A stretch of DNA of 64,000 bases from contig JAVLUZ010000547.1 in the NCBI GenBank assembly GCA_036768485.1, forward strand, positions 473,501-537,500, read 5' to 3'. Of the stretch, positions 4,151 through 64,000 are shown piece by piece. The first letter of the stretch is position 1. Every line of letters begins with the position of its first letter. This stretch comes from Mermis nigrescens (taxonomy: Eukaryota; Nematoda; Enoplea; Mermithida; Mermithidae). The notes beneath the pieces are model-generated. The model was given only the letters and a program-made list of their open reading frames with translations. It was not told the origin of the DNA and did no database searches. The translations under genes were made by a program, and so were the position numbers.

Positions 4151-4574
4151 ATATATAGGCTGTTTGTTAACCCAGTGCATGGACCGGATCCTTAAACTAA
4201 GTTCTTTATTACTAAAGCACTTAATTTTTTCTTCTGCACGGCGAAATGGATAGCGACTCTTTTCTTATAGGTCGCGGATCCAGTGATCAAAGAAATTTGA
4301 TAAAAAACTCAGTCCATGCATTCGATAAAAAATAGACTACAAATTGAAACAGAACTGATTCGCATGGCTTTGGGAATCGTGATCGAAAAAATCTGTTTTT
4401 AAACCGACCATCGGACATTCAGTACGTGTTCCGTGACGGGCCGGTTGATCCGGAAGGCAAATGACCCAGCTCCTTAAAAGTTTGCGCGACGACAAGGGTA
4501 AAACAAAACTTTATAATTTACATAAACAAGGTAGTCAAACAGGCGGATGATAAGTACATTGCATTGAGGGCTCG
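4151..4574. other. Intervening sequence with no recognised gene
   Basis: Mixed-composition sequence without long frames or clear repeats. Confidence 0.35.
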
Positions 4575-5294: not shown

Positions 5295-5559
5295 ACACCT
5301 GGGCGTGGGGGGTTTGGGGGAGGTATGCACCCCTCGAGAAACCAAAATACACCCCCCAGGAATCAAAATCCCCCCCCCAAGAATTCAATTTTTGAAAATT
5401 TTTTTCGTTCTTTTCGCAATTTTTGATGCCAATGGATAGTGCTTGGTGAGAAACGTCGAAAAATGGTGTTTTTTCGCCATACGACCATTTTTAAGGCCAT
5501 TTTTTGACCTTTGAAAAATCTTGCACCCCTCCCCCATAGAATTTTCTTGCTGCCCACGT
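5295..5559. mobile_element. Small non-autonomous element, copy 1, flanked by a 12-bp direct repeat
   Basis: The segment starts acacctgggcgtgggg and ends gctgcccacgt, giving short imperfect inverted ends rich in GTGGGC. The same 12 bases, atggacaggacc, lie immediately outside both ends (5283-5294 and 5560-5571), as expected for a target duplication. The interior alternates C-rich and A/T-rich blocks with no coding capacity. A second copy is at 5833-6088. The long duplication would fit a Mutator-like mechanism (usual 9-11 bp) only loosely. Confidence 0.6.
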
Positions 5560-5832
5560 ATGGACAGGACCCCCCAAAAATACCCTTAGCCCCCCTAGAA
5601 AATTTACCTGTTGTTACATGTATACCCACAATTCATACCCACAAAGCTAAATCCTCCTGAGGCCAATCAACTGTCTTGAATGGCTGTGCGTTTACACAGA
5701 ATCAACAAATCGGGACAAAGTTCGACAAACTGTGGATTTATGCACACCATGTGTATCTCCAATCACATTAAAAAATCGAGGAACTTGCCAAAAATCTTAA
5801 ACTTAGGCGAATTTGCTGATCGGGTGAAAGCC

Positions 5833-10045: not shown

Positions 10046-10079
10046 CTCTTTATTATATCCTTTTTAAGAAAGAAATTTT

Positions 10080-10497
10080 ATTACTAATAAACCAAACTGA
10101 TAAAATACAGAATGACAAGTTACATAATAGATACAAACAAATTAGTAACGGAACATGCAAGTCAATGGAATGACAATTTGTACGCGCGCCCCACAAGATG
10201 TCTAGATAAATCAGAGTTTACTAATCTGGATTTAAATATGTTAAGTTTAGAGAAGATACAATGAAGTCAGGAAGATCGTTCCAAACTGCGATGTATTTGT
10301 AAAAGAAATCAAACTTTTCTAAATTAGAATGTACAACAGGTATAACTAATTTAAATCTATGCTGCGGGTCGGGTAATATTATGATTAAATACAAAAGAAT
10401 CATCAGCTTCTAAAGATGATTTATGACAAATAATTTGATACATCATACACAAGCAAATTTGCCAGCGTCTTAATTCAGGTCTGCTTAATTTAAGTTA
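10080..10497 (-). mobile_element. 3' fragment of a second CR1/L2-like element
   Basis: On the minus strand a short frame (from about 10490 down to 10221) reads LKLSRPELRRWQICLCMMYQ and then VAVWNDLP-like wording (IAVWNDLPDFIVSSLNL). These match the extreme C-terminus of ORF2 in the neighbouring copies (compare DSPEIRRLRSDLCMMYQ and VWNSLPEAVV near 16060-16300). It is followed by a GC-rich 3' UTR phrase (gtggggcgcgcgtac) and a T/A-rich tail. It is severely 5'-truncated and abuts the next fragment. Confidence 0.7.
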
Positions 10498-11960
10498 TAC
10501 TAAGACTAATACTAATAATTTATTCGGAAAAGACACAAGGGTAAAACAAAGTCGCAAGGAAAATAAGATAGCATAGTGTAATGCGAAATGTCCTGGACAC
10601 ACAGGCAAAATTGATTGCGCTCACGTGTGCCCCATCAAAAAATTCCCGAAATCAACCTTTTTCAAATTTCTCTTAAATGTCTCAACATTTGGAGAACTTC
10701 GAATATATTGTGGGAGATCGTTCCTATTGTGGGAGATCGTTCCAAATTCTAGCTGATCTAGTAGCAAAACAATACTTTTTACGATCAAGTCAAAATTTTT
10801 CTAAATAGATTTGATTTGCAAATGCATTTCTAGTACGCAAATGACCATAAAACTTATAAAAATCTTCAGAAGGCAAGAGATTATTGTGAATAATATTATA
10901 CGTAACAATTAAATCAAAATAAATTCTACGGAGTTCAAGCCTCTCTAAATTTAAGGCATTTAACCTTTCATCATAACAAAAGTCCCATATATCCAATTAA
11001 CCTTTTAGTAAATTTTCGCTGTACCCGTTTAACCCTGTTGATATCAGAAAGCAAACAGGGGCTCCATACAGTTGGAGCATACTCTACTAAAGGCCGTATA
11101 TAATTCTTAAAAGCAAGAACCAACATTTTAAGATCACGTGATTCAAAACATTTGCAAATCAAAGCACTAAGCTTTTGCTGATATATTAGTACAATGACAA
11201 CTAGATGATAAGTTTGTTGTAAAGGAAACACCTAAATCTCGAATTGAGGAACCTGCGTCAGATAACAAAAAATGGTTTATGTGATATGTAACTTTAGGAT
11301 TAGCGTACCCTAGATATAACACAGAACATTTAAGGAGAGATATGCTTAACTGATTTTCTTCAGACCAGGAAACCAGCTTATCTAAATCTTTTTGCAACAA
11401 AGTATAATTTTGAGAAAAATTAAAGAGCTTCAAATCATCAGCAAAGAAAAAGACTTCAGTATGCTCAACAGCTTGAACAAAATCGTTTGCAAACAACAGA
11501 AAGAAAGAGGGTCCTAAAACGCTACCTTGAGGTACGCCACTAATAACTGGTTTCCGATCAGAAAAAGCGTCAAAAATTTTGAACTTTTGTGTACGATTTG
11601 TCAAAAAAGAAGTTAACCATTTTAATAGCATTCCATTTATCCCATAATGCTTCAACTTCTCTATCAATTTAGAATAAACGACAGAGTCGAAGGCTTTACT
11701 AAAATCGACATAAACAACATCAATAGGAATAGATACGTCAAGTGATTTGACCCACATGTTTGTACACTTCAAAAGCTGAGTTTCACACGACTTTCCCTCT
11801 TGAAAACCAAACTGCCGTGAGAATAATTTAGTTTTCGACTTTAAAGAGCAATTAAAGCTCTGTTTATAATATACTCCATAATTTTACAAGTGACGCAACA
11901 AAGAGATATTGGACGGTAATTTTCTGCAAATAATGACTGCCGACAACTTGAGCTTCATAC
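10498..11960 (-). mobile_element. 5'-truncated CR1/L2-like element with intact RT core
   Basis: The minus-strand element starts at about 11960 inside the RT (YRPISLCCVTCKIME) and runs to a 3' tail of ttagtattagtcttagt around 10500-10520. It has the GC-rich 3' UTR phrase gggcacacgtgagcgcaatc near 10625. The coding part is annotated separately. The 3' terminal repeat differs from those of the other copies, so this is a separate lineage rather than a duplicate. Confidence 0.82.
10790..11960 (-). pseudogene. Reverse transcriptase fragment (ORF2 C-terminal half)
   Basis: The longest piece (11772-11167) holds YVDFSKAFDSVVYSKL (motif A), ISGVPQGSVLGPSFF (motif B) and FFFADDLKLFN (motif C catalytic pair). 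It is followed by LYLGYANPKVTY and IRDLGV. Two later pieces (11231-10971 and 10996-10790) in other frames give YIRPLVEYAPTVWSP, VQRKFTKRLIGY and ALNLERLELRRIYFDL. The RT active site looks normal, but at least two frameshifts separate the pieces and the endonuclease is missing, so it is dead. It is similar to the plus-strand copies on either side. Confidence 0.85.
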
Positions 11961-12340
11961 AGTAGCTGGGAATAGTTCCAACAGCTGCAAGACACGAAAC
12001 AAACAAAGAGCAACAACATTGTTCAGCTAATATTGAAATCCAACAACAAAATCGTTCGTTCATTGCGACTGCCACATATATGTAGGTATGTATCTTTCTC
12101 TTCAATGCTCAGACATTACCAAATTTTAATTTAAAAAATGCACTGGATCTCGAAAACAAATTAGGAAATAGGGATGCCATATCAGGCTCGTAACCATTTT
12201 TCTATAAAATTAAATTGCACACTCACAAGTTTTGACAACCCACATTAAAGTTCATATTATGCAGTATGACTGAGCGAGCTTGACCATGCACACAAAGGCC
12301 GCGCCGCGTCGATCGCAGCACTTTCATTGACGTGTTTTTA
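11961..12340. other. Sequence between retrotransposons with no recognised gene
   Basis: It may include the 5' UTR of the element that follows. A GC-rich phrase aaggccgcgccgcgtcgatcg (about 12296-12316) precedes the ORF1 leader. No frame with a domain was found. Confidence 0.35.
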
Positions 12341-12434
12341 CCCAAGTTAAAAGGGTACGACGAAACCGTTGAAGTGGTTCAGAAGATTTATAATTTTTGC
12401 GGTTCTTCGTATAATTTGGCAGTCAACGACGAAA

Positions 12435-13569
12435 ATGCTGATGTTCGGCGGCATACAATTGATCGTCTTCGTATTACTAATTGGATCGATGCGAGTTGAC
12501 GTCATACTACCGGACGAACTGTGCTCAAAATTTTGCCGTTTATACAGCGTCCATTGCGGAAGATGTTCGATGCGAAACGACTTTAGCCCCAACGAATTTT
12601 TTCGCGTATGGTTGCGAAAATTATGGTCTTTTGAACTTTCGTTTATTATTGCTAAGTGGCGACATCGAAACGAACCCTGGTCCTAAACGTCAGACAAAAG
12701 ATTCGACTAGTTTGCAGTCGAAAGACATTGACAAGAGTCAACTCATTACGGCACCCTGCGTTTGTTGTCGTTCGAATGTCGGCGGCGGCGACTTGGCTTT
12801 CCAGTGCGGTTATTGTGGTTCGTGGGGAGCACGCCGCGTGTGCTTCCATCTCGGACAACTTTCATAACGAATTCGCCGCCTTGTCGTCTGATGCCTCTAA
12901 ACTATTCATTTATTCTTGCACGCAATGCTACGTTCGCAGCGTTCCTACACTCGCTTTAAACTCCTATCGATTGCTGCAGAAGCCGAACTTTGCCCCTTTG
13001 CCCGCTGAGCCTGTGGATTTTGCTCAATCATCAAACATTTCTGCAGCCGCCCCTCATCGTCCTACGTTCGCAGGTGGACCTCCTTTTCGCGGCGGGCCTG
13101 TTTGTGGCCCATCGGTGTTGGACTCGGTTCGTATAGCCGTTGACCTTCAAGAACGTTCTACCAGGGCTGTTGGTTTTAACATCAATGAAGTAAAACCGGC
13201 ACCGCTTCTGATCAAAAAAAGTTTGATCTAGCCGAAGTTCGTCGCTTGGCGGATGACCATGATTTTGATCCAACTGACATTACCGATTGCTATCGTTTGG
13301 GACGGGGCGATATACCTAATCGAAAATACGAACGCTTGCTCAAAATACAATTCTCCTCAGCACACGCCCGCAACTTGTGGTTGCGAGCTTTCCAGTCGCC
13401 TAAACCTGCGGCGGGCGACAGACGGGATCCTACGCGAATCTGGTTTCGACGCGATTTGTCCGATCAGGAGCGTCAGGACGCTTACGAGGAGCGTCAGTTG
13501 CGTCGAACGTCCGGCGCTGATGCTAACGAGCGTCGATCGTCGTGGAGGAATAATTCGCGCATAATTTGA
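12435..13569 (+). pseudogene. CR1-type ORF1 protein with hydrophobic leader, 2A motif and zinc finger
   Basis: The first ATG in the plausible frame is at 12435 and gives a leader with IQLIVFVLLIGS, which resembles a signal peptide or membrane segment. That frame must shift by one before about 12620 to enter the frame holding GDIETNPGP, a 2A-like motif. In the 2A frame there is no ATG upstream, only a TAA at 12478-12480. After 2A comes a cysteine-rich finger (CVCC...CGYC, about 12757-12820), then a second frameshift near 12830. A linker follows, and after a third shift near 13230 comes a conserved C-terminal part (DCYRLGRGD, RLLKIQFSSAHARNLWLR, IWFRRDLSDQERQDAYEER). ORF1 proteins of such elements bind the element RNA. 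The finger and the basic C-terminus fit that role. At least three frame disruptions make it non-functional. Confidence 0.8.
12625..12684 (+). other. 2A-like translational recoding motif in ORF1
   Basis: The codons spell ...LLLLSGDIETNPGP, matching the D-x-E-x-N-P-G-P consensus in full. Established knowledge: 2A peptides make the ribosome skip the bond between the last glycine and proline, releasing the upstream peptide while translation continues. They are known in APE-type non-LTR retrotransposons of several invertebrates. Here skipping would separate the hydrophobic leader from the finger-bearing ORF1 protein. Confidence 0.9.
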
Positions 13570-13596
13570 GGATGCGGGCCCCCTCGCGGACGGCAG

Positions 13597-16372
13597 TCAG
13601 TTTTGCGTTGTTGTTTATTTAATGCACGTAGTATACTAAATAAACTAAATGAGTTTGATGCATTTTTAACAGCAAATGATTTCGATATCGTGTGTGTGTG
13701 TGAATCCTGGTTAACTCCTAGTGTATCTAATGGCTTACTTTGCAATTTAAACCTGTTTTAATGTGTATCGTTCCGATAGGATCAATCGAAAAGGTGGAGG
13801 TGTTTTTATTCTTTCAAAAAGTACTTTAAAATCCTACTTGCCGAAAGTACCGGAAAATCTTTTCAGTGAAGAAATAGTTATTGTTGATTTCATTGGCGTA
13901 AGCTCCAAGATTCGTGTGCTACTTTTTTACAGGGCGCCGGATTATGATTTCTCCCACATGAGAATGCTTTGCCGTGTTATAGAATGGGCCTCTCAGATAC
14001 AGTATCCTTTTGTCATATTAGGTGATTTAAATTTTCCTAATGTAGACTGGTCTAGTTTTATTCTACCTTCGAGTCCTATTAACCGATCTTTTTGCGAGTG
14101 TATGCTTTCTCTATCTTTTAGTCAAAAAGTTTCTGAACCAACACACGGTATGCATATTTTAGATGTTATTTTTGATGCCCATTCTATCGAAAACGTTGAA
14201 GTCAACCCACCTTTTTCTACTAGTGATCACTCGGTTGTTACTTTTTCTCTTAAATGTTCTATCTTGGAAGAAAAAAGTTCTGCTAAACTTAATTTTCGCA
14301 GAGCAAATTATGATCAGATTGAATTATTTTTGTCCGCAATTTCGTGGCCTGACATTTTTTCGGTTGCGTTACTTGTGATGATTTCTACAACAAATTTTTG
14401 TCTGTTATAAATCCTTTAATTTCCCAGCATGTTCCAAAAATTGAAGCTAAACCTGCAACTGTGAAAAGATACCCAATGAACATAAGAAAGCTGGTTGCTA
14501 AAAAACTGAGGCTGTGGCATGTTTATAAACAGAGAAAAACGCCTGAATCTAAAGCTGTTTATAATAACTGTGCAAAGTTATTAAAGGCCGAAATCTATAA
14601 ATTTCACTCTTCCAAAGAGGATAAACTTATTAAATCTGGAAATTTGAATTCTTTTTATAATTTTGTTAATTCTCGTATTAGTGGTGAAAGAACTATTCCA
14701 ATTTTAACTGATGGCGATCGTGTGATTGCTTCTACTGACAAAGATAAGGCAAACGTTTTTAGCACACTTTTTTGCTTCAGTCTTTAGTGTTCCTACGCAA
14801 ACGAATTTTGGTCTTATTAATGCTTGTGCACAGCCAAAGTTATCAAACATTCGTTTTTCTGATGATGTCGTTTTTTCTGCTATACGGAAAATTAAACCAT
14901 CATTATCGATTGGCCCTGACGGACTTTGCGCATTTTTTGTGAAAAAACTTGCTTTTGTACTTACCCAGCCCTTAACCACTATTTTTGAAATATCTTTCAA
15001 AACCCATTGTATTCCTGCACTGTGGCGCACCGCTAATGTTGTTCCTGTGTATAAAAAGGGCGACCGGAGTGATGCTAAAAATTACAGGCCGATATTGTTA
15101 TGTTGTATTACGTGTAAGATCATGGAATCTATAATTAACAGTATGATGCGAAGCACATTTACGTGAGAATAATTTGATCTCCTCCGGTCAGTTTGGTTTC
15201 CAAAAGGGTAAATCGTGTGAATTGCAATTACTAAAGTGCAAAAATGAATGGACTAAATTAATTGATGAAAAAAACACTGTTGATGTTATCTACATTGATT
15301 TTTCTAAAGCTTTCGATCACTGTAGTTCACCGTAAATTAATTTATAAACTGGAAACTTTTGGATTTTCTGGAGATTTATTGAGTTGGTTAACTTGTTTTT
15401 GAGCGATAGGACTCAAAGGGTTGTTATTAACGGTCAGTTTTTCGAGCGAAAAATCTGTCACTAGCGGTGTTCCTCAGGGCAGTATACTTGGCCCGATTCT
15501 TTTTGTTTTATTCATAAATGACATTAGCGACCGCTTAAATAGCAAAAGTTTGCCTTTTTGCCGATGACGTCAAGCTTTATAATTTATCTAGCAATCACAC
15601 CCAACTTCAAGATGATATCGCTAAACTCGTAGTCTGGTCCAAGGATTGGCAGTTAAAAATTGCTACTGAAAAATGCTACGTGTTATATCTAGGTTTTGGA
15701 AATCGCAAGCATTCTTATAGAATTTCTGACCTGACTGTAGAACAGAGTGTAAATTCTGTAAAGGATTTGGGTGTTTACGTATCAAGTAAACTTGATTTTA
15801 ATTTCCACTATAATGATATAACGCGTAGAGCTTATGCTAGGGCTATGCTAATATCGAAATCATTTGCTTCTAAAAATAAACTAAATATGTCTAGGGCTTT
15901 TACTGTTTACGTCAGACCGCTTCTTGAGTATTGTAGCACTGTTTGGAATCCATACCGTAAGACCCATGTTTCAATGATCGAAAATGTTCAAAGGAAATTT
16001 ACACGTAAAATTATTGGATTTCGGGGACTTTCTTATGCTGAAAGACTCAGTTCTTTAGAATTGGATAGCCCGGAGATTCGCAGATTGCGTAGTGATCTGT
16101 GTATGATGTATCAGATATTGAGTGGTAGATGCGTTTTGCAGCAAGCCGACTTTTTTACTTTTTGTGAAAACAACACGCGTGCTCAAAATTCAATGAAATG
16201 TGAATGCACTCCTTTTCGGCTTGATGTTCGTGGGTATGATTTATCCAATAGGTGGATTCACGTATGGAATTCTCTCCCTGAAGCTGTTGTAAGATCTCCT
16301 AGTGTTGCTTCCCTCCGTGAAAAGTTGAAAAAAGTTGATCTAACGGGGTATTTGCTAGGGGGCGTGTTCTAA
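13597..16372 (+). pseudogene. ORF2 polyprotein (endonuclease and reverse transcriptase), frameshifted
   Basis: The endonuclease part has LFNARSILNKL (13615), VCESWL (13695), GDLNFPNVDW (about 14021) and TSDHSVV (14220). The RT part has SIGPDGLCAFFVKK (14908), VVPVYKKGDRSDAKNYRP (about 15038), FGFQKGKSCE (15190), YIDFSKAF (15290), [14 protein letters not shown] (about 15463) and [10 protein letters not shown] (about 15560). The longest clean piece, 15680-16372, holds the C-terminal domain (VQRKFTRKI, VWNSLPEAVV). Frame breaks occur near 13750, 14390, 14780, 15160, 15320, 15400, 15440 and 15550. All catalytic motifs are recognisable, so the element died recently compared with the fragments at 10-12 kb. 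Confidence 0.9.
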
Positions 16373-24000: not shown

Positions 24001-24640
24001 TCTATCGAACTCTCCAGCACAGTGCTGCCCGTCACTGCCTGAGCCGATTGTAACAAATCCCGCTGACAACGCAAATGACACTTTCATCCAGATACGAAGT
24101 GGTCGGCCAGTCGTTAGAACTTCCTTTTGGGGACGTCTGAAAATTGCAGTGCCGACCCAACACTGAATGGATTGCGGCCGTGTCTCCGCTCCATTTACAA
24201 TAAGCTCCATTCATCGCAGTGTCGCCCCTAACACTGTATCAATTGCGGCCGTGTCTCCGCTTCATTTACACTAAGCTCAGTGTCTATTGCCACTGGCTAC
24301 TCTCTCTTTCCCTTCTCTACCATTCTAACGATCAAGCTCAACACACTTTTTCTCCAGAATCGGCACCAATGCGCTCCAGCGCCTCATCATATACCAGGAG
24401 ATTCACTCCTTCTCGCCTTAGGCGACTGATAAGTTAAAAGCAAACGCGCCAAAATCCAAAGACTTTCGGCCAAAAAATCAAGGCAAATTGCCCTTCTTCC
24501 TCAGCACCCACAAATGTGGAGCAACTCCCGCCAGACAAGAACCGCACTAGGCAGATCTACAGCGAACCAAATGCACAGGCAGTCAGCTGAGAGGTCGTCT
24601 AAACCTCTCGTCTAAACCACTTGTGTCTTACACCAATTTG
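24001..24640 (-). other. 5' external transcribed spacer
   Basis: Upstream of 18S in transcription order. It contains a tandem duplication of about 72 bp: gcagtgccgacccaacactg...(24145-24215) and gcagtgtcgcccctaacact...(24217-24286), both with ttgcggccgtgtctccgct. The right-hand limit is not defined by sequence. Confidence 0.7.
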
Positions 24641-52275: not shown

Positions 52276-52483
52276 CATTGGACTTGGAAAAAATAATGGA
52301 AGAATAGTGGATCAAATTGTCTAAGACCACCTTTGCTTTTGAGACCACGTGCGGCTGGGGGCGCCGGCGCGCGCGCGCGCCACCCGCCCTGCTCTTCCGC
52401 CGCCGCCCCTCACAAACTCCATCGGGCCGGATAAAAATATCCGGTCTGAAACAAATTGCCAAAAAATGGACTATGTCCAAAAC
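52276..52483 (-). other. 3' external spacer of 28S with a GC-rich island
   Basis: Directly downstream of the 28S 3' end in transcription order. At 52345-52415 it contains a GC island including the perfect palindrome GGCGCGCGCGCGCGCC (52366-52381) and ccgccgccgcccctc, in surroundings that are strongly AT-rich. A last CCGGATAA-type repeat unit (52426-52444) follows it towards 28S. Confidence 0.7.
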
Positions 52484-52913
52484 AACAAATCTTCCAATCA
52501 AGAGCTAAGTCTCAATAGATCGCAGTATGGTGGCTGCTCTACTAAATACAACACTCTGACCAGTATCTAAGTCGTCTGCAAATGATTTAGCGCCCCAACC
52601 TTGCATCGAAATACTCTTCGTATAACCACGGCGGCCTGTTACGGCCGCCGACTAGGCTATAGAAAGGGGCTTTTAAAGGACCACACAGTGGCCCAATATC
52701 CATACCTCTCAAGGCATAGAGAGCAAATATTGTCGCCGTACCTAGACCGAATACTAACTTAGAGGCGTTCAGTTATAATTCGTCAGATGGTAGCCTCGCG
52801 CCATTGGCTTTTCAACCAAGCACATAAACCAAATGTCTGAATCTGCGGTTCCTCTCGTACTGAGCAGAATTACTATTGCAACAACCGGTCATCAGTAGGG
52901 TAAAACTAACCTG
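52484..52913 (-). rRNA. 28S (large-subunit) ribosomal RNA, 3'-terminal segment
   Basis: On the minus strand this is the last ~430 nt of 28S. It contains CAGTACGAGAGGAACCGCAG (complement near 52855), CAGACATTTGG, the GGCGCTAAATCATTTGCAGACGACTTAG region (near 52580) and the terminal GCGATCTATTGAGACTTAG (near 52515), all matching the animal 28S 3' end. The gene is interrupted at 52913 in the middle of CAGGTTAGTTTTAC by a long insertion and resumes at 63773. No decay is visible in this segment, so the unit was functional until, or is still functional despite, the insertion. Confidence 0.95.
52900..52913. repeat. Left copy of 14-bp target duplication
   Basis: GTAAAACTAACCTG, part of normal 28S. 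The same 14 bases occur at 63773-63786, where 28S resumes, so they mark both edges of an insertion. Confidence 0.93.
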
Positions 52914-52924
52914 GCTTACGGGTC

Positions 52925-53255
52925 AGTATCGATAAGTTTAGACGGGCCTCTAAACCACTGACCCGCCGGTCAAAACCTCGCCGGTCTAAACTGCTGACTT
53001 GTCCGTCTAAACACTGACTAGGTCCGTCTAAACCACTGACTAGGTCCGTCTAAACACTGACTAGGTCCGTCTAAACCACTGACTAAGTCCTTCTGAGAGT
53101 CCGTCTAAACCACTGACTAGTCCGTCTAAACCACTGACTAGTCCATCTAAACCAACTGACTAGTCTGTCTAAACAGGTTTACTGACCCCTCCCAACTTTA
53201 ATGCTTTTAGGGGGATCAGTGTTTAGACCCAAGGGTCAGTGGTTTAGACAAATTA
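52925..53255. repeat. Left direct-repeat block, GTCTAAACCACTGAC type
   Basis: About fifteen copies of 18-22-bp units such as gtccgtctaaaccactgact, with variants gactaggtcc and gactagtcc. It ends with an inverted pair (actgacccctcccaa / gggggatcagtgtttagacc). The matching block at the other end of the insertion has the same orientation. Confidence 0.9.
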
Positions 53256-54009
53256 AAAACATACTAATTTCTTAGTTTGAGAAGCATTGAACTTTTAAAT
53301 ATCACATTATTACACCTATCACTATTTTTATGATTGCTTTTCTAGCACATGGATCTTTTTAATTGGCAACATGATTTAACTTAATTGTAATTATACATTT
53401 ATACATTTTTTTGTACAGCAATGACATAAACAATTATCTGTTTTAAAGTGAGGAAACCATACTGCCTTAATCCTTCTCTGCTATGCATAAGCATTATTGT
53501 GCTAATCAAGCATCCATTATAATATGTATGATTATACTATATAAAATGCATATGTGTGGTATACTTGTTTTAGCTGTGATTGGTAGGTCTTCTTTTAATT
53601 TTCAATTCATGGTTTTTGAGATTTGATCAGTGTACTATCAAAATACAAATTCATGATGTATATGCATAAATGAGCTTACAAAATGTCCTGAGCAACATAT
53701 ATCAACATATAGGATATATCAACATATATAATATCAACAAATATATAATATATAACATAATAATATACAACATATATAACAACATATAGGATTGACTGGT
53801 GAATTACAATTTTTGTGTGATATCCACCTTAATTAGCGTTTTCATTAGCACATTTATAGTTCAATGGCAAATATGATATTTAGGACTAAATTACAAATAT
53901 TTTTATCTTTAACTTCAGTAGTTTGACTTGATTTCTGTTTTACATTCCATATTGATCCATGAAATCTTCATTTAAAGATGAAGTCATAGAGTGAGAGCTA
54001 TATAAATGT
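53256..54009. other. AT-rich interior of the insertion
   Basis: No frame. Near 53700-53800 there is a local repeat of atatcaacatata words. Confidence 0.5.
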
Positions 54010-54121
54010 CATCTAAACCACTGACCACTGGTCTAAACCTCATTGAATACTGACCCAACTTGGTTTGGTACATTTGCGGGTCAGTATTTCAAAGTTTAGA
54101 CCAGAGGTCAGTGGTTTAGAC
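54010..54121. repeat. 112-bp hairpin 1
   Basis: Left arm atctaaaccactgacc..ggtctaaacc...atactgaccc, right arm gggtcagtat...agtttagacc..ggtcagtggtttagac. The arms can pair over about 45 bp with a short loop. gagctatataaat lies just upstream. Confidence 0.9.
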
Positions 54122-54567
54122 TCAAATGAGTCCTTGTACAAACATTTAATTGAGCCCATCTAAACCATATATCCACTTAACTCAAGTCCAGCCACTATAT
54201 TGATCAATATGTAATAGATACAACCAGTCAACAACAAGAAGAAAATGTGCAATGCATTTGTATAAAGAGCCAACAAAATGTACTCATTAGCATTTGTAAT
54301 TCAAAGAGTCCTTTTGACAGAAAATAACATATTAGATATTATTTATGATTTCTCTTGTAGAATCAGAATGTGATATAATACCTGCTTTAATAAGCATTGT
54401 ATTTAGCATATTTATATTTCAATGGCATAAATGACTCTAAGCGCCTAGTCTTACGTGAGTTGAATCAAGATTCTATTCATTTAATTTAGTTTGTGCTTTA
54501 TAATGCTTGACTGATTGATAGGTCTTCATTTAATGATCAATTGATAGAGTTAGAGCTATAAAAGCCC

Positions 54568-54677
54568 ATCTAAACCACTGACCCCTGATCTAAACTTCAG
54601 AAAACACTGACCCAGCTGGATTTGAGACCTACACAGGTCAGTATTTTGAGGTTTAGACTAACAGGTCAGTGGTTTAT
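54568..54677. repeat. 112-bp hairpin 2
   Basis: Same design as hairpin 1, with left arm atctaaaccactgacccctg and right arm ggtttagactaacaggtcag. It is preceded by gagctataaaag. Confidence 0.88.
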
Positions 54678-55281
54678 ATGTTGAATCTTGTGCAATGGAC
54701 CACTTTTGAACAATGTTTGCCACATAAATTAAAGACTATTCAAGTCATTATGGCTAAAACTTAAAAAATAACCATGATTCAAAATGCAAATTTAAAGTGC
54801 TGTATGTTTTGTCAATATTATACAAATATTTGGGATGTTCTCTACTAAAATGCACATATGTGATATAGATTAGCCTCTGAAGCTAAAATCTCTTCACAAA
54901 ATTGATCAATTTTTAATGGTTTATGACATTCAGCCAGTGTCCTGCCAAAATGCAAGTGTGCAATACATTTGCATAAATATGCTAATAAAACATCCTTAAT
55001 AGCATGTATTTTTTATGACACCTCTTAACAGGATGGAACATAACACATATTAATTTTGTGGTGAATGAGAAATGATGTGATTTTAGCTTTATTTTGCTTT
55101 TGTAGTATCACATTTATGGTTTAAAGGCATAAATGATCTCATAAATGACACTTAGCATAAAGTCATAGATATCATAATCATAGGATTTTATTTTTTAAAC
55201 TTAATCTCTGCAATACAGGCTTCCTGGTCCATTGAATCATCATTAAGGGATTAATTCATGGAGTTTCAGCTATAAAAACCT

Positions 55282-55392
55282 CATCTAAACTACTGACCAC
55301 TGGTCTAAACCTTGTAAAATACTGACCCAGCTGGGTTTGGGACATCTGTGGGTCAGTATTTTGTGGTTTAGTCCAGAGGTCAGTGGTTTAGA
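55282..55392. repeat. 112-bp hairpin 3
   Basis: Left arm atctaaactactgaccactg, right arm gtttagtccagaggtcagtg. It is preceded by cagctataaaaa. Confidence 0.9.
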
Positions 55393-55559
55393 CTGCAAAT
55401 GAGTCCATGTAGAAAACATACAATTGAGTCCACCTAAACCACTGACACTTTTGTCTAAACCTTAGTTTTACTGACTCCTAAAGCACAAATGTCTGAATTA
55501 ATCTAGCTGCCTACCTTCTAGGATGATTAGAACTTGTAAATATAGAATATATTCCAAAT

Positions 55560-57420
55560 AGAAGCCATTTAAGCCTATACCTTGTGATCTGTCAATGCTA
55601 GCTAAATAACTAATTGTTTTGTAGGCCTTAATGAGGTAAATCTTATTACAGTATGCAATTTAAGTGAAATGACTTCTAGATAGTTTAAAACTACCAATTA
55701 CAGTATGTATTCTAACTAGAGCTTTTTTAGCCTATGCCTTGTGATCTGCTTATGCTAACCATTACAAACAAGTACTTGTTTTGTAGGCCTTAAATGGATA
55801 AATCTCATTACATTATATGGTGTTTGTGAATACACTTCTAGGATGCTTCAAACTAGAAAGTATTGTTTATATTCTAATTAAAAGCCCTTTCAGCCCATAT
55901 CTTGTGATCTGCTAATGCTAACTATAATAAATAAGTACTTGTTTTATAGGCCTTAATGAGATGAATCTCAATACAGTATGTGATTTATGTGAAATGACTT
56001 CTAGATAGCTTGAAACTACTTATTACAGTATGTATTCCAACTAGATCCTTTTTAGCCCATGCCATGTGATCTACCAATGCTAACTATAATAAATAAGTAC
56101 TTGTTTTATAGGCCTTAATGAGATGAATCCTAATACAGTACGTGATTTATGTGAAATGACTTCTAGATAGCTTTAAAGTACTAATTACAGTATGTATCAA
56201 ATCTAGAGCTTTTTTAGCCCATGCCTAGTGATCTGCTAATGCTAACTACTACAAAGAAGTACTTGTTTTGTAGGCCTTCAATGAATAAATCTCATTACAT
56301 TATATGGTGTTTGTGAATACACTTCTAGGATGCTTCAAACTAGGAAGTATTGTATATATTCTAATTAAAAGCCTTTTCAGCCCATATCTTGTGATCTGCT
56401 AATGCTAACTATAATAAATAAGTACTTGTTTTATAGGCCTTAATGAGATGAATCTCAATACAGTAAGTGATTTATGTGAAATGACTTCTAGATAGCTTGA
56501 AACTACTTTTTACAGTATGTATTCCAACTAGATCCTTTTCAGCCCATATCTTGTGATCTGCTAATGCTAACTATAATAAATAAGTACTTGTTTTATAGGC
56601 CTTAATGAGATGAATCTCAATACAGTACGTGATTTATGTGAAATGACTTCTAGATAGCTTGAAACTACTTATTACAGTATGTATTCCAACTAGATCCTTT
56701 TTAGCCCATGCCATGTGATCTACCAATGCTAACTATAATAAATAAGTACTTGTTTTATAGGCCTTAATGAGATGAATCCTAATACAGTACGTGATTTATG
56801 TGAAATGACTTCTAGATAGCTTTAAAGTACTAATTACAGTATGTATCAAATCTAGAGCTTTTTTAGCCCATGCCTAGTGATCTGCTAATGCTAACTACTA
56901 CAAACAAGTACTTGTTTTGTAGGCCTTAATTGAATAAATCTCATTACAGTACTTGATGTTTGTGAAAACACTTCTAGGATGCTTAGCACTAGAAAGTATA
57001 GTATATATTTTAATTAGAAGGTTTTCAGCCTGTATCTTTTGATCTGCTAATGCTAGCTGTAATAAATAAGTACTTGTTTTGTAGGCCTTGATGAGATGAA
57101 TCTTAACACAGTACGTGATTCATGTGAAATGGCTTCTAGATAGCTTTAAACTACTAATTACAGTATGTGTTCCAACTAGAGCTTTTTAGCCCATGCCTTG
57201 TGATCTGCTAATGCTAACTATTACAAACAAGTACTTGTTTTGCAGGCCTTAATGAGATGAATCTTATTGCAGTATGTGATGCATGTTAAAAGACTTTTAG
57301 ATTGCTCATTACTACTAATTATAGTATGTATACCAATTACAGCTCTTTTGGCCTATACTTTGTTAGCTGCTAAAGCCAGATTTGAGAAATAAGTACTTGC
57401 TTCATAGGTCAAAAGAGGTA
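55560..57420. repeat. Tandem array of a ~160-bp repeat, about 11 copies
   Basis: The phrase agtacttgttttgtaggcc (or ttttatagg) recurs at about 55778, 55937, 56098, 56259, 56428, 56587, 56747, 56908, 57069, 57231 and 57392, mostly 159-162 bp apart. Units also share gtgatctgctaatgctaact, acttctagatagctt and ttacagtatgtattcc. Four-unit blocks repeat: 55940-56430 resembles 56430-56910. Confidence 0.92.
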
Positions 57421-57547
57421 AATCCTATTATATTACTTAACATGTGTATATGACATTATGTAGTGAAAGTAATAGCCTCTGCATGCTTTATTGATCAACT
57501 AAATCATCATTTAGGGTTAAATTTATAGAGTTAGAGCTATTAAAGTT

Positions 57548-57600
57548 TTGTCTAAACCACTGACCACTGATCTAAACTTCATAATATACTGACCCAATCA
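57548..57600. repeat. Hairpin left arm only
   Basis: tctaaaccactgaccactga..ctaaac...atactgaccc without its right arm. It is followed within 50 bp by a complete hairpin. Confidence 0.8.
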
Positions 57601-57641
57601 ACATTTGGGTAAAAGATTTTAGAGTTGCAGCTGAAAAAATC

Positions 57642-57752
57642 TGTCTAAACTACTGACCACTGGTCTAAACCTTTTGAAATACTGACCCAGCTGGATTTGG
57701 GACATCTGTGGGTCAGTATTGTAGGGTTTAGACCAGAAGTCAGTGGTTTAGA
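57642..57752. repeat. 112-bp hairpin 4
   Basis: Left arm tgtctaaactactgaccact, right arm ggtttagaccagaagtcagt. Same spacing as the other hairpins. Confidence 0.9.
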
Positions 57753-58055
57753 GGCAAATAAGTCCATGCCCAAACATTATTTTTCTTGACAAGTAATACA
57801 CAAATGCCTGAATTAACCTCCTTGCTCACATTCTGACTACTTTGTATCTTATCTAGAGGTTTATATATGCTAGCAATGCCCAATAAGTACTTGTTTTTGG
57901 AGTTTAACAAATATATCTCATTAAAGTACTAGATTTAGGTGAAAAGCCTTCTAGGATGCTTAGAACTATCTGCTGTGCTGCCACTCCAACAAATGCATTG
58001 CTGGATAAAAGAGTCTGGTCCAAAACTAATGGACAAAACTAGGGACAATGTCCAA

Positions 58056-58627
58056 AACATCAATACTTGCAATCAAGAGCTAAGTCTCAATAGATCACAG
58101 TAAGGAGGCTGCTCTACTAAATGCAACAATCTGACCAGTATTTATGTTGTCTGCACATGATTTAGCACCCCAACCTTGAATCAAAATACTATTTGTATAA
58201 ACAAGGCAGCCTCTTACGGCCACCAACTAGGCTATGGAAAAGGGCTTTTAAAGGACAACAATATCCATACCTCTCAAGGCATAGAGAGCAAATATTGTCG
58301 CCGTACCTAGACCGAATACTAACTTAGAGCCATTCAGTTATGATTCGTCAGATGGTAGCCTTGCAACATTGGATTTTTAACCAAGCACATAATCTAGATG
58401 TCTGAATCTGAAGTTTCTCTTATACTGTCCAGAGTTACTATTGCAACAACCAGATATCAGTAGGATAAAACTAACCTGTCCTGCTATGGTCTAAACCCAG
58501 CTCACATTCCTTTTAAACAGGTGAACAGTCCAATGCTTGGCAAATTCTGCTTCACAAAGATTGGAAGAACCGACCTCAGTGGTAAAATAAGCAATATCAA
58601 TATGGTTGCTTGGCTGCAAAAATGGTC
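58056..58627 (-). pseudogene. Decayed 28S 3' region, not interrupted at the insertion site
   Basis: A ~570-bp copy of the 28S 3' end lies inside the insertion in the same orientation as the functional gene. It covers the same stretch as 52484-52913 plus the first ~145 nt beyond the insertion site (through gcttggctgc near 58615). The site itself is intact (ggataaaactaacctgtcctg). It differs by many changes, often C to T or G to A, and a small deletion near 58258. About 70 bp of spacer-like sequence (ctggataaaagagtctggtccaaaa) precedes its 3' end, as in the real unit. It cannot make functional rRNA. Confidence 0.9.
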
Positions 58628-58757
58628 TTAAGCATGCCATCATGGACAAGATAATCCTAAATTTTATTTTTCAACTTAATTTCTGGTTTGCAAGATTTAC
58701 TGATCAATTATATCATCATTTAGGTATAAATTTATACAGTTAGAGCAACAACAATCT

Positions 58758-58812
58758 TGTCTAAACCACTGACCACTGATCTAAACTTTGCAATATACTG
58801 ACCCAGTCATCA
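58758..58812. repeat. Hairpin left arm only, second instance
   Basis: tctaaaccactgaccactga..ctaaact...atactgaccc, followed by catcatttgggg. This repeats the arrangement at 57548, so a solo arm plus a hairpin was copied as a block. Confidence 0.8.
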
Positions 58813-58850
58813 TTTGGGGATAAAATTTTAGAGTTGCATCCGAAAAAATC

Positions 58851-58962
58851 TGTCTAAACCACTGACAATTGGTCTAAACTTTGTGAAATACTGACCCAAC
58901 TGGGTTTGGAACGTTTGTGTGTCAGTATTCTAAGGTTTAGACCAGATGGTCAGTGGTTTAGA
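58851..58962. repeat. 112-bp hairpin 5
   Basis: Left arm tgtctaaaccactgacaatt, right arm ggtttagaccagatggtcag. Confidence 0.9.
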
Positions 58963-59099
58963 CCCAAATGAGTCCAAGTACAAAACATACATTGTGTCAG
59001 TCTAAACCACTGACACTTTGGTATAAACCTTACTTTTACTGACTCTTAATGCAAAAAAGCCTGAATTAATCTACTTGCTCAATTATTGATCACTTTGTA

Positions 59100-59960
59100 T
59101 CTTATTTAGAGGTTAATATATGTTAGCTATGACAAATAAGTACTTGTTTTGTAGGCCTTAATGAGATAAATCTTATTACAGTACATGATGTATGTGAAAA
59201 GACATCTAGATTCCTCAGAACTACGAAGTATAGTTTGTATTTTAACTACAGCTTTCCTAGCTATACCTGTGTTGTAGTTGTAGGCCTTAATGTCATAAAT
59301 CTCATTACAGTACATGATGTTTGTGGAAACACTTCTAGGATGCTTAGAAATAGTAATTGCCATATGTATTAGAATAAGATGCCCTTTTAGCCTCTGTCTT
59401 ATTATCTGCTAATGTCAGCTATAATAAACAAGTACTTGTTTTGTAGGCCTTGATGAGAGGAATCTTATTGCACTACACAATGTATGTGAAAAGACATTTA
59501 GATTGCTCAGAAATGCTAAATAGAGTTTGTATTCCAATTAAAGCTATTCTAACCTATACCTTGTGATCTGCTATTGCAAGCTATGACAAATAAGTACTTG
59601 TGTCGAAGGCCTTAATGTCATTAATCTCATTACAGTAGTTGATATTTGTGGAAACACTTCTAGGATGCTTAGTAATAGTGAATGTCATATATATCTCAAG
59701 TCAGATGCTTTTCAGCCTCTATCTTGTGATCTGTTAATGTAAGCTACAATAAATAAGCACTTGTTTTGTAGGCCTTAATGAGAGGAGTCTTATAACAGCA
59801 CACAGTGTATGTGAAAAGACATCTGGGTTGCTCAGTACTATTAAATACAGTTTGTATTGCAAATACAGCTTTTTTAGCCTATACCTTGTCAAAACTAATG
59901 CTAGGTTTAACCTCTAAGTTCTTATTTTGAAGTCCTTAATGATATAAACCTTATTTTATT
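59100..59960. repeat. Second ~160-bp repeat array, about 5 copies, more diverged
   Basis: The aagtacttgtttt..taggccttaatg phrase recurs at about 59135, 59280, 59430, 59595 and 59760, with spacing around 150-165 bp. It is homologous to the array at 55560-57420. Confidence 0.85.
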
Positions 59961-60072
59961 GCTTAACATATGTTTAAAGGCCCCCAGTAAAAGTAAAAGC
60001 CTCTATATTCTTTATTGATTAATTAAATCATCATTTAAGGATACATTTGTAGAGTTACAGCTATAAAAGTTC

Positions 60073-60184
60073 TGTCTAAACCACTGACCACTGGTCTAAA
60101 CCTTGTGAAATACTGACCCAGCTGGGTATGGCATGTCTGTGGGTCAGTATTTTGAGGTTTAGACCAGGGGTCAGTGGTTTAGAC
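60073..60184. repeat. 112-bp hairpin 6
   Basis: Left arm tgtctaaaccactgaccact, right arm ggtttagaccaggggtcagt. It is preceded by cagctataaaag. Confidence 0.9.
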
Positions 60185-60969
60185 TCGAATGAGTCCATGT
60201 ACAAACATCAATTGAGCTCATCTAAACCAGTTACACTTTGGTCCAAACCTTTGTTTTACTGACTATAAATGCACAAAAGCCTGAATTACTCTACTTTCTC
60301 ACCTTGTGACCTCTTTGTTTCTTATTTAGAGGTTTATATATGCTTGCTATGAGAAATAAGTGCTTGTTTAATAGGTTCAGTGATATAAATCTTAATACAG
60401 TACTTGATGTATGTGGAAAAACTTATTGATTGCATATAATCATTAATTATAGTATATATTTCAGCAAGAGCTTTTACAGCCTATAGCTTCTGATCTGCTA
60501 ATGATAGCTATGACAAATAAGTACTTGTTCTATAGGCTTTAAACACATAAATCTTATCACTGTTCTCAAGATAAATGTAAAGGCATTAAGATACATACAA
60601 GTGGAAAACATAGTATATATTTCAATTGTACTTCATTTAGCCTGTACCTTGTAATCTACTAGTGTTAGCTATGACATGTAATTACTTGTTCTTAACAGTA
60701 TATACTCTTGAGTGACTTCTCATGAGAGGAAGGACCTTAACCTTTATTATTAATAATTTTTCATAGTGAGTCAGAAAGTAATGTAATTTTAGCTTTGTCA
60801 TATTTATTAGCATATTTATGGTTAAATAGCATAAGAGAGCTTGAGCATGGAACCATGGATGTGATTAATTCTAGATTTTATTTTTTCAACTTAATTTCTG
60901 GTTTGCAAGCTTTATTGATCAACTAAATCATCAATCAGGAATAAATTTTTAGAGTTACAGCAAAAAATT

Positions 60970-61081
60970 CATCTAAACCACTGACCACTGGTCTAAACCT
61001 TATGAAATACTGACCCAGCTGGGTTTGGGACATCTGTGGGTCAGTATTTTGAGGTTTAGACCAGAGGTCAGTGATTTAGAC
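60970..61081. repeat. 112-bp hairpin 7
   Basis: Left arm atctaaaccactgaccactg, right arm ggtttagaccagaggtcagt. It lies in the first copy of the 904-bp block. Confidence 0.92.
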
Positions 61082-61873
61082 ACAAATGAGTCCATGTAGA
61101 AAACATACAATTGAGTCCACCTAAACCACTGACACTTTTGTCTAAACCTTAGTTTTACTGACTATCAATGTACAAATGCCTGAATTATTCTACTTGATCA
61201 CCTTCTAACCACTTTGTTTCTTATTTAGAGATTTATATATGATGAGAAATAAGTATTTGCTTCTTGGGTTTACAGTGTCACGGATAATCTTTTAATTAGA
61301 CCACTTAGCTCATGCACTCCATGTTATGGGGTTTAAAAGGAAAAAAGAACAAAACATTTTAAAAAATTGAAAAAATAAAAAATAAAATTAAAAAAAATTC
61401 TGCTAATGATAGCTATGACAAATAAGTACTTGTTCTATAGGCTTTAAAAACATAAATCTTGTCACTGTTCTTAAGACATGTGTAATAGCATTAAGATGCT
61501 TGCAACTAGTAGGCATAGTATATGTTCCGATTAAAGTTTTTTAGCCTGTCCTTGTAATCTGTTAGTGTTATCCATGGCAAGTGAATACTTGTTCCTAACA
61601 GTATATAATCTTGAGTGAATTCATTTGACAGGAAGGACCTTAATCTTTATTATTAGTAATTTTTCATAGTGAGTCAGAAAGTTATGTAATTTAAGCTTTG
61701 ACATTTTAATTACCGCATTTATTGTTAAATAGCATATGTGAGCTTTAGCATGGAATTATGGATGTGATTAATCCTAGATTTTATTTTTTCAACTTAATTT
61801 CTGGTTTGCAAGCTTTATTGATCAACTAAATCATCATTCAGGAATAAATTTTTAGAGTTACAGCAAAAAAATT

Positions 61874-61985
61874 CATCTAAACCACTGACCACTGGTCTAA
61901 ACCTTATGAAATACTGACCCAGCTGGGTTTGGGACATCTGTGGGTCAGTATTTTGAGGTTTAGACCAGAGGTCAGTGGTTTAGAC
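61874..61985. repeat. 112-bp hairpin 8
   Basis: Almost identical to hairpin 7, in the second copy of the 904-bp block. Confidence 0.92.
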
Positions 61986-62234
61986 GCAAATGAGTCCATG
62001 TAGAAAACATACAATTGAGTCCATCTAAACCACTGACACTTTTGTCTAAACCTTAGTTTTACTGACTATCAATGTACAAATGCCTGAAATATTCTACTTG
62101 ATCACCTTCTGACCACTTTGTTTCTTATTTAGAGATTTATATATGATGAGAAATAAGTATTTGCTTCTTGGGTTTACAATGTCACGGATAATGTTTCAAT
62201 GATACCACTTAGCTCATGCACTCTATGCTATAGG

Positions 62235-62410
62235 GTTTAAAAGAAAAAAAAAGAAAAAAAATGAAAAAAGAAAAAAGAAATTTAAACATAAAAATAAATA
62301 AAATTAAAAAAAGAAAAAAATAGAAAAATATCAAAAAATAAAAAAAGAACAGAAATAGAAAAAAGTAAAAAGAAAATAAAAAAAATGAAAAAAATGAAAT
62401 TAAAAAAAAT
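62235..62410. repeat. A-rich tract
   Basis: About 175 bp of nearly pure A with scattered G and T (aaaaaagaaaaaaa, aaaatgaaaaaa). A shorter equivalent ends the previous block at about 61333-61398. The minus-strand frame across it (all F, L, S, Y) is an artefact. Confidence 0.9.
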
Positions 62411-62579
62411 TGTTGTATGCACAGGCCTTGTGCATCAAAGCAGTTCCCTGCTTTGTACATGTTTTCTTATAATGTTTTTTGATATTGGTGTTGGGCTATG
62501 GAATATACAATGTGCACTTGAGTATGTATGTATGTTTGCATGTATCTTATCTATTTATGTGTGTTGGAGATGTTAGAGA

Positions 62580-63270
62580 TCACAGCTAGCAAATGCTGTA
62601 GTGGTAAGATCAATTCAATGTCTATATCAAAACCACAGTTTCCTAGCTTGCACAGCAATGTCCAGATCAAAGCCACCAAGTACAATACTTGTGCTTTGTA
62701 TCGGTCAGTCAGTGGTTTGAGAAAAGCAAAGTCTGAATCAAAACCACTTTGTTGTCACAGCTTGTGCAAATTATAGTTGTGTGATCAAAGCCAGGTCTAG
62801 ATCAAAACCACAATGTACAATACTTGTACTTCATATTAGTCAATCCAAGAGTCAATACTTGTGCTTTGTATTGGTCAGTCAAAGGATGACTTGAATGAAT
62901 ATGACTGGTCTGATAAAAGCAAAGTCTGAATCAAAACCACTCTGTCACTGGTTGAACAAATTATAGTGGTATGATCAAAGCAATGTCCAGATCAAAACCA
63001 GTATGTACAATACCTGTACATTGTATTTGTCACGTATGACTTCTGCAGAAATTTGAATGCTTTGACAAAAGCAAAGTCTGAATAAAAACCACTCTGTCAC
63101 AGCTTGAACAAATTATATGGTTAGATCAAAGCAATGTCTAGATCAGAACCACTTTGTTCAATACTTGTACTTTTCATTGGTCAGTTTCAGCATGAAATGC
63201 CAGCTTTTGTATGGTTTGATAAAAGCAAAGTCTGAATCAATACCACAATGTTTTGTTTTACACATCATTT
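62580..63270. repeat. Imperfect repeats, ~150-190-bp step, AAAGCAAAGTCTGAATCAAAACC type
   Basis: aaagcaaagtctgaa(t)c recurs at about 62726, 62917, 63067 and 63224. Each is followed by accactctgtcac..ttgaacaaatta, gatcaaagcaatgtc and acaatacttgtact. It is confined to the right part of the insertion. Confidence 0.8.
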
Positions 63271-63670
63271 TGAGTCTAAACCACTGACCCCTGGTCTAAA
63301 CTACTGACCCCTTGCCATGCACAGGTCTTATGTTGAGTCTAAACCACTGACCCCTGGTCTAAACTACTGACCCTCTTGTCATCCATAGGTCATATGTTGA
63401 GTCTAAACTACTGACCCCTGGTCTAAACACTGACCCTTTGCCTTCCATAGGTCCATCTAAACCACTGACTAGGTCTGTTTAAACCACTGACTAGTCCGTC
63501 TAAACACTGACTAGTCCATCTTTACCACTGACTAGTCTGTCTAAACACTGACCCAATTGGGACCAAAGTTCCGTCTAAACCACTGACAAGTCTGTCTAAA
63601 CACTGACTAAAATCCGTCTAAACACTGACCCAGTCTGTCAAACACTGACCTCTTGGGTCAGCACTTGCTG
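63271..63670. repeat. Right direct-repeat block, GTCTAAACCACTGAC type
   Basis: The first part has ~75-bp units (gagtctaaaccactgacccc..ggtctaaactactgaccc..cataggtc). The second part has ~20-bp units (gtccgtctaaacactgacta) like the left block at 52925-53255, in the same orientation. Confidence 0.9.
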
Positions 63671-63772
63671 ACACCAGTTTAGACCAAACTGACTCCAAAC
63701 TTATCGCTCGTCCGGAGCATGCTTAAAAGGGGTCAGTTTCAGATCCCGTTTACTGACACTTTACCATGTACC

Positions 63773-63786
<14 letters not shown>
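63773..63786. repeat. Right copy of 14-bp target duplication
   Basis: GTAAAACTAACCTG, identical to 52900-52913. Here it is followed by the normal 28S continuation tctcacgacgg. Confidence 0.93.
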
Positions 63787-63821
<35 letters not shown>

Positions 63822-63862
63822 TTAACGGGTGAACAATCCAACGCTTGGCGAATTCTGCTTCG

Positions 63863-63900
<38 letters not shown>

Positions 63901-63923
63901 AACGTCGCTATGGACGCTTGGCT

Positions 63924-63967
<44 letters not shown>

Positions 63968-64000
63968 AATTTAAACTCTAAATCTTAAAAGGATCGATAG
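63773..64000 (-). rRNA. 28S ribosomal RNA, segment upstream of the insertion (runs off the window)
   Basis: 28S continues in the minus orientation with GTTTAGACCGTCGTGAGACA (complement near 63795), the CAGAATTCGCCAAGCG region (near 63855), GATCCTTCGATGTCGGCTC (near 63885), GGGATAACTGGCTTGTGGC (near 63940) and GGTGTCAGAAAAGTTACC (near 63957). No decay is seen. The upstream part and the R1/R2 target region lie beyond the window. Confidence 0.96.

Follow-up and report, generated by a model that had tools for sequence, protein, structure and literature searches.

What occupies the 28S ribosomal RNA gene at one locus of the mermithid nematode Mermis nigrescens, and by what route did it get there? 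In a window of 64,000 nucleotides (nt), by which we mean the whole stretch of DNA analysed (contig JAVLUZ010000547.1 of assembly GCA_036768485.1, here C496:473501-537500), the 3' part of a 28S gene is split by 10,859 bp of DNA. This insert is real and gene-free, is matched by a sister on another contig (C64) whose end falls on the same 28S base, and is likely a variant of a mobile element specific to ribosomal DNA (rDNA). Searches for further copies and relatives covered 523,963,438 assembly bases on 860 contigs.

Two inserts at one 28S base

The insert lies at 52914..63772 of the window, as delimited by repeat matching; searches for open reading frames (ORFs), Pfam domains and long interspersed nuclear elements (LINEs) detected no coding sequence in it. 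An exact 14-bp repeat, GTAAAACTAACCTG, stands at both edges by exact pattern match. The 28S gene is on the minus strand; the copy at 63773..63786 continues the upstream 28S and marks the 5' junction in the 28S sense, and the copy at 52900..52913 runs on into the 28S 3' end and marks the 3' junction. Positions 2765-2997 of the Rfam 28S model correspond to 64000-63768 and positions 3007-3399 to 52885-52487, which places the insertion point near position 2997 of 3401, as measured on the model only. These exact 14-mers and continuous model positions confirm the description in an earlier note, made from the sequence alone, of an insertion with a 14-bp duplication in an otherwise continuous 28S gene. 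One further match to the 14-mer, with one mismatch, lies inside the insert in a decayed, uninterrupted 28S copy (58465..58478, minus strand; pattern match). Three matches with at most one mismatch in the window compare with a shuffle mean of 0.05, and three were reached in 1 of 100 shuffles. The repeat starts 52 nt ahead of AGTACGAGAGG in 28S, as read from the alignment, a string that we take to be the sarcin-ricin segment. Neither junction of the window insert carries poly(A), and the window contains no N bases.

A query with the 28S 3' end identified 14 places in the assembly. One of these, at C64:4707261-4707747, is a 28S piece in its own right. It matches with 97% identity over 488 bp, its 28S part differing in the alignment by about eight substitutions and a 2-nt deletion, and begins exactly at CAGGTTAGTTTTAC, C64:4707261 being the same base as the window 3' junction; the DNA before it is not 28S. 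No 28S was found at the gathering threshold within 30 kb upstream of this insert end. With about 0.9 kb of spacer, the piece forms an orphan 28S 3' end (C64:4707261-4708612) on a 21.5-Mb contig, away from the C496 array. Over their last 110 bases, the two inserts align with a score of 46, compared with a maximum of 28 among 1000 random C64 110-mers from outside the insert. The final 13 bases are CTGACCCGTAAGC in the window and CTGACACGTAAGA on C64 (11 of 13 identical), giving CTGACMCGTAAGM as the approximately 13 terminal bases of the element. At 60 nt or more and E<=1e-5, blastn of the window insert against the C64 insert returned nothing besides the decayed inner 28S copy and the 13 junction bases.

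The two inserts also share a short word. With up to two mismatches, GTCAGTNGTTTANAC occurs 38 times in the window insert and not in the rest of the window, and 32 times in the 7 kb before the C64 28S and not in the other 33 kb compared there. Neighboring words less than 60 bp apart are spaced by 20-22 bp in 14 of 24 cases on C64 and in 4 of 16 in the window. Exact GTCAGTGGTTTAGAC was found 45 times in the searched 524 Mb (18 in the window insert, 14 in its mirror copy described below, and 13 on C1, C61, C64, C174, C199, and C510 together), and a reversed-word control was found nowhere. Further upstream on C64, two additional stretches contain 7 and 10 word matches as well as a repeat of part of the C64 insert (4700514-4701926).

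Judged by their sequences, the window and C64 inserts are members of a family specific for this 28S site, with at least two divergent members; site specificity is seen at the 3' junction, in two inserts. Since the divergent C64 insert stops at the identical 28S base, resembles the window insert at its terminus and has variants of the same word, this is a family rather than a one-off event or an assembly slip. The earlier note had proposed looking for another insert at this base that shares terminal sequence, and C64 supplies one at the 3' junction. That so different an insert elsewhere in the genome stops at this base makes it likely that the window insert is a mobile element targeting precisely this position in 28S.

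Composition of the insert and its genomic surroundings

The window insert is AT-rich, and the longest of the 30 stop-to-stop ORFs of at least 50 aa that overlap 52914-63772 has 93 aa. Pfam searches of 10 of these 30 ORFs (10 of the longest) gave a single match, DUF6699, below the cutoff (E 0.083), and five LINE pieces from the window matched neither the insert nor the C64 and C170 stretches. A coding remnant was therefore not seen in the ORF list, in the Pfam searches of 10 of the 30 ORFs or in the LINE-piece search, in agreement with the earlier description of an insert that is non-coding and without a protein motif. Repeat and folding analyses bore out its other part, that the insert is built of hairpins and tandem repeats.

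In the 28S sense, the 3' terminal region (52914..53250) includes the last bases ACTGACCCGTAAGC, a terminal hairpin and an array of an approximately 21-bp word, and no relative of it was found outside contig C496 in the assembly sequence searched. The 5' terminal region (63270..63772) holds arrays of the same words in the same orientation, and in the assembly search this right end of the insert matched on C496 only. Within their outermost 120 bases, the two ends have no more than a 14-base inverted match in common, and terminal inverted repeats were not found there. Longer terminal regions match each other in direct orientation with a score of 173, a comparison over lengths that differ from the 120-base one, and inverted word pairs connect the terminal regions further in (for example, 53212-53249 with 63274-63311, 79% complementary).

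Between the ends, the first half of the body (53830..57965) consists of hairpin units and tandem repeats, mostly with dispersed relatives (C170 and C199), including a 162-bp tandem repeat of 11.4 copies at 55550..57399 identified by repeat finding. The second half (58640..62181) has hairpin units and 163-bp repeats, again mostly with dispersed relatives. There are at least eight hairpin units of about 110 nt. The example at 61869..61991 (minus strand) folds at -71.4 kcal/mol (z -12.0; none of 200 shuffles as good), and others start near 54005, 54562, 55277, 57637, 58845, 60068, and 60965. At 62182..63269 follow an A-rich tract and a region for which the compared loci gave no relatives; of this part, 62410-63270 matches only itself, on C496, in the assembly sequence searched. 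As a structured RNA element the hairpin unit was rejected, with 3 of 36 pairs changed on both sides (183 of 500 shuffles as high) and a covariation score reached by 40 of 500. Since hairpin covariation is not clearly above that of shuffles, the words rather than the pairing look conserved. At E<=1, Rfam searches of 52400-64000 returned 28S pieces and, below gathering, microRNA-precursor-like hairpins, caiA (E 0.78) and sok (E 0.55), with no ribozyme or intron family.

The two halves of the body are separated by the decayed 28S copy, which the earlier note did not mention, an uninterrupted 28S 3' end with the start of the spacer (57970..58622, minus strand), which is 84.4% identical over 652 aligned bases to the join expected of an empty site and has lost 32 of 38 CpG. 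Given that this copy is 15.6% diverged while both flanking 14-mers are identical and the window 28S flanks seem intact, the data suggest that the fragment was taken up and aged before the insert arrived, unless gene conversion refreshed the flanks. The same disparity supports movement of the insert as a unit.

Relatives of the insert are abundant in the genome as fragments. In six stretches compared on C170, C199, and C64, 6,666 of the 10,859 insert bases have relatives, in the form of dispersed hairpin and tandem units, and a 1,540-bp body query gave at least 96 matches, located on C199, C510, C174, C1, C170, and C98 besides C496. As candidates for full elements, the dispersed copies on C170, C199, and the two upstream C64 stretches were rejected, being unit fragments with no 14-mer target at up to two mismatches. 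Among the stretches with dispersed relatives, no Rfam match reached gathering in L044, L045, L048, and L049, and Pfam at E<=0.01 recognized nothing in 10 ORFs taken from L040, L044, and L049. One C199 stretch (L046) has a transposase-like ORF, Harbinger-looking by eye, and a gag-like ORF (4499-5568 and 454-1535, respectively) beside dispersed hairpin units. Within the window itself, blastn of the insert against the remainder gave no match at E<=1e-3.

A 361-bp query across the left junction recovered an identical inverted copy on C496 and two weaker matches within the other end of the insert. From window position 6885 on, contig C496 repeats itself exactly in inverted orientation over at least 55 kb. 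This duplicate is symmetric about C496:553942, fails between 548 and 550 kb, and is either an assembly duplicate or a true palindrome. The mirror copy of the insert belongs to this duplicate, so the two C496 copies count as one observation. The target with its downstream-side pattern occurs at five places with up to three mismatches, and the upstream-side pattern at two, the one on C64 being the insert's own end. All intact targets found in the assembly are interrupted; the target is uninterrupted only in the decayed copy within the insert and in the mirror of that copy. This does not imply that every 28S gene is interrupted, since high-copy rDNA may have dropped out of the assembly. A coding copy at the insertion site was not found in the assembly sequence searched, and no published insert in mermithid 28S was among the matches listed from the open-licence literature.

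On the minus strand, the rDNA of the window comprises 18S at 24000-22202, tandem spacer repeats amounting to about 24.5 kb, and the 3' end of 28S. It stops inside internal transcribed spacer 1 (ITS1) at 21534 and gives way to non-rDNA, in contrast to a C496 unit that runs on to 5.8S and 28S. This end in ITS1 indicates that the interrupted 28S adjoins an array edge or a boundary resembling one, and position 21534 is either an array edge or an insertion boundary. The spacer (26042-50544) is built of 100-, 200-, and 300-bp tandem repeats and is, by impression, unusually long. Upstream of 18S, the spacer contains GTCTAAAC (reverse complement GTTTAGAC) twice, 13 bp apart, at 24597-24617, the same word as in the insert. 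Beside the rDNA edge, LINE-like endonuclease and reverse transcriptase (RT) remnants lie within 7692-16372 (at 7692-9803, 11167-11883, and 13751-16372), and an ORF with a TBP domain (313-726; Pfam TBP, E 2e-20) possibly encodes a divergent TBP or a TBP-related factor.

Mode of integration

The mode of insertion has to be inferred, and both R1-type target-primed insertion in trans and tyrosine-recombinase-like integration fit the data. Nimaviruses PajaWSV and PotrWSV are reported in crustacean 28S, where they duplicate the motif CCGTCGCGRGAC, and to encode tyrosine recombinases (PMC10871703, in which this motif is termed an 11-mer and printed with 12 letters). In the window, the 28S immediately upstream of the site (63787..63812, minus strand) is TGAGCTGGGTTTAGACCGTCGTGAGA, which by sequence comparison includes the nimavirus 28S motif and the word GGTTTAGAC. 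The 28S across the site reads GGGTTTAGACCGTCGTGAGA followed by CAGGTTAGTTTTAC, and the nimavirus-type motif directly abuts the 14-bp repeat. The 7 bases before the 14-mer are CGTAAGC in the window insert and CGTAAGA in the C64 insert, compared with CGTGAGA in 28S (5 of 7 and 6 of 7 matching); 0.65% and 0.05%, respectively, of the inserts' own 7-mers match as well. Because the site abuts the nimavirus motif, the element end mimics the adjoining 28S and nothing RT-like is present, we lean toward a tyrosine recombinase. Our preferred but tentative reading is that the gene-free 10.86-kb insert, as a family member, is a non-autonomous mobile element that a site-specific recombinase, predicted to be a tyrosine recombinase and supplied in trans, put in place.

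In such a mechanism, the word arrays at the insert ends would be binding sites of the integrating enzyme, their spacing of about 21 bp, clearest on C64, corresponding to two helical turns. The enzyme would also read the similar 28S words GGTTTAGAC and CGTGAGACAGG just upstream of the insertion point, and a crossover joining the 28S core to a similar core in the element would leave the repeat on both sides. The body, with its hairpin and 162-bp units and rDNA fragment, may be dispensable filler derived from tandem amplification and capture, and the element would persist in the edge unit of the rDNA array. Two further patterns were noted: 10-mers of the 28S near the site are enriched in the window insert (22 versus 2.8 expected; 7 of 1000 shuffles as high), and the C64 end has an 8-bp dyad with a 6-bp spacer, GTCTCACG-CTGACA-CGTAAGAC, with one mismatch.

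Several of these observations cut the other way. The exact 14-bp duplication has the size of an R1 product (PMC2718515). A recombinase gene was not seen, with no completed genome search for PF00589. The 7-base mimicry was recognized post hoc, and the two ends that show it are not independent. The window junction, the 5' junction and the empty site all lack the dyad, and the 28S-word enrichment is limited to the window insert, with none in the C64 insert. The controls for the terminal alignment were not word-rich, and shared words may supply part of the score of 46. Exact GTCAGTGGTTTAGAC occurs just once within the 7 kb of C64, the 17 word matches of the upstream stretches lie beyond those 7 kb, and the 5' junction is readable for one insert only.

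Among the other explanations, a non-autonomous retroelement, target-primed by the protein of an unseen R1-type or mosquito-RT-like element, is a possible, somewhat less probable one; the 14-bp repeat would then be a staggered-cut duplication and the CGTAAGM end an RNA 3' end. The junction common to both inserts is indeed the 3' one in the 28S sense, and ancestral-type R1 insertions are described with 14-bp duplications and variable 5' ends (PMC2718515). However, 10.9 kb without genes is far above the size of short internally deleted elements (SIDEs), the long hairpins (one folded, at -71 kcal/mol, and eight aligned) would make a hard template, neither an RT or endonuclease (EN) remnant nor a coding copy at the site was found in the sequence searched, and arrays of the same words at both ends are, to our knowledge, no retroelement feature. 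Of the earlier suggestion of a non-autonomous passenger of an unseen R-type element, the passenger remains the best category; the R-type driver finds no support, as no RT or EN remnant was seen.

The repeat-rich ends, dispersed hairpin units and inverted word pairs between the terminal regions could instead point to a derivative of a DDE transposon of the Foldback, Galileo, or Tm1 kind, whose ends would bind transposase and whose body would be an amplified subterminal repeat. This is unlikely, given that the outermost 120 bases show only the 14-base inverted match, that the longer terminal regions match in direct orientation, and that 14 bp exceeds the cut-and-paste duplications that we are aware of (2-11 bp). 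There are precedents in Tm1, a nematode foldback family (PMC3169594), and in Pokey, a DNA transposon with a fixed 28S site, rDNA spacer pieces and non-coding relatives (PMC3849761). Slightly more improbable still is growth in place: a small R insertion of some age, sitting in an array-edge unit, would have been enlarged by tandem duplications and by taking in dispersed repeats and an rDNA fragment, without ever having moved at its present size. The dispersed unit types in the body, the captured 28S piece and the array-edge position would suit such growth; against it, C64 carries a separate copy of similar architecture at the same base, and exact 14-mers beside a 15.6% diverged inner copy would require gene conversion. 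An assembly artefact or scaffold misjoin is the least credible explanation and very improbable: the assembly, made with Flye from nanopore data, involved many scaffolding steps (PMC10989877) and contains the exact inverted duplicate on C496, but the divergent C64 insert ends at the same base and the window is free of N.

Most known 28S inserts are retrotransposons with coding capacity. The existence of a gene-free insert of almost 11 kb, together with its sister at this base, means that rDNA can host large non-coding inserts at a fixed site, would add a further 28S insertion site for nematodes, and raises the question of whether the interrupted rDNA units are silenced or processed. It also provides a concrete way to test the idea that the 28S segment into which endogenous viruses insert is an integration hot spot shared with other elements. 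A broader proposal, which we regard as doubtful, is that of a new class of rDNA parasite, in which gene-free DNA elements of 7-11 kb or more would recruit a tyrosine recombinase through phased word arrays and insert into a 28S attachment core that is also the hot spot of crustacean nimaviruses. If true, the 28S 3' domain of animals would serve large recombinase-driven DNA elements, besides retrotransposons, as a general site of integration.

Comparison with known 28S-targeted systems

The mosquito elements RT1 and RT2 occupy 28S about 630 bp downstream of R1 and have 17-bp duplications, poly(A) tails, and two ORFs. They probably lie in roughly the same 28S zone as the Mermis inserts; the duplication of the window insert is 14 bp rather than 17 bp. 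The R1 site itself appears to be several hundred nt upstream of the insertion point.

The arthropod R1 elements and R2/R1 hybrid SIDEs share with the window insert a 28S target, a 14-bp duplication, a conserved junction on the 28S 3' side and the existence of non-autonomous relatives. In R1, a bottom-strand cut primes reverse transcription and a top-strand cut 14 bp away results in 14-bp duplications (PMC2718515). R1 is situated 74 nt downstream of R2 in 28S domain IV (PMC2048585), and non-autonomous SIDEs appear to ride on it (PMC3414825). In contrast to these elements, the window insert apparently uses another 28S site, shows no RT or EN, is 10.9 kb in length and has word arrays and hairpins. 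Of the features of an R1-type element it has the 14-bp duplication; RT and APE endonuclease ORFs, or a coding relative at the site, were not found in the sequence searched.

Pokey and mPok (piggyBac) of Daphnia resemble the Mermis inserts in being DNA elements with one fixed 28S site, non-coding relatives and captured rDNA spacer. Pokey is described as carrying rDNA spacer (PMC3849761), which provides a precedent for rDNA capture by a 28S-targeted element. Unlike the window insert, Pokey has a TTAA duplication and inverted terminal repeats, and mPok is about 750 bp (PMC3849761). Membership in Pokey was rejected for the window insert, which has neither that duplication nor inverted terminal repeats. 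Foldback, Galileo, and Tm1 are similar in their long, internally repetitive ends and non-coding members. Tm1 differs in its composite inverted ends and 9-bp duplications, and the abstract of PMC3169594, which describes it, does not mention rDNA specificity. A Foldback/Mutator element of the Tm1 type was likewise rejected, given a duplication of 14 bp rather than 9 bp and outermost 120 bases that are not inverted repeats, with inverted word pairs further in.

Compared with the nimaviruses PajaWSV and PotrWSV, the insertion point in Mermis is about 11 nt further downstream, and no viral gene or recombinase was seen in the insert. The nimavirus motif CCGTCGCGRGAC corresponds here to CCGTCGTGAGAC, whose last C is the first base of the 14-bp repeat (1 nt shared), and the two systems are alike in the 28S segment they occupy and in their large DNA cargo.

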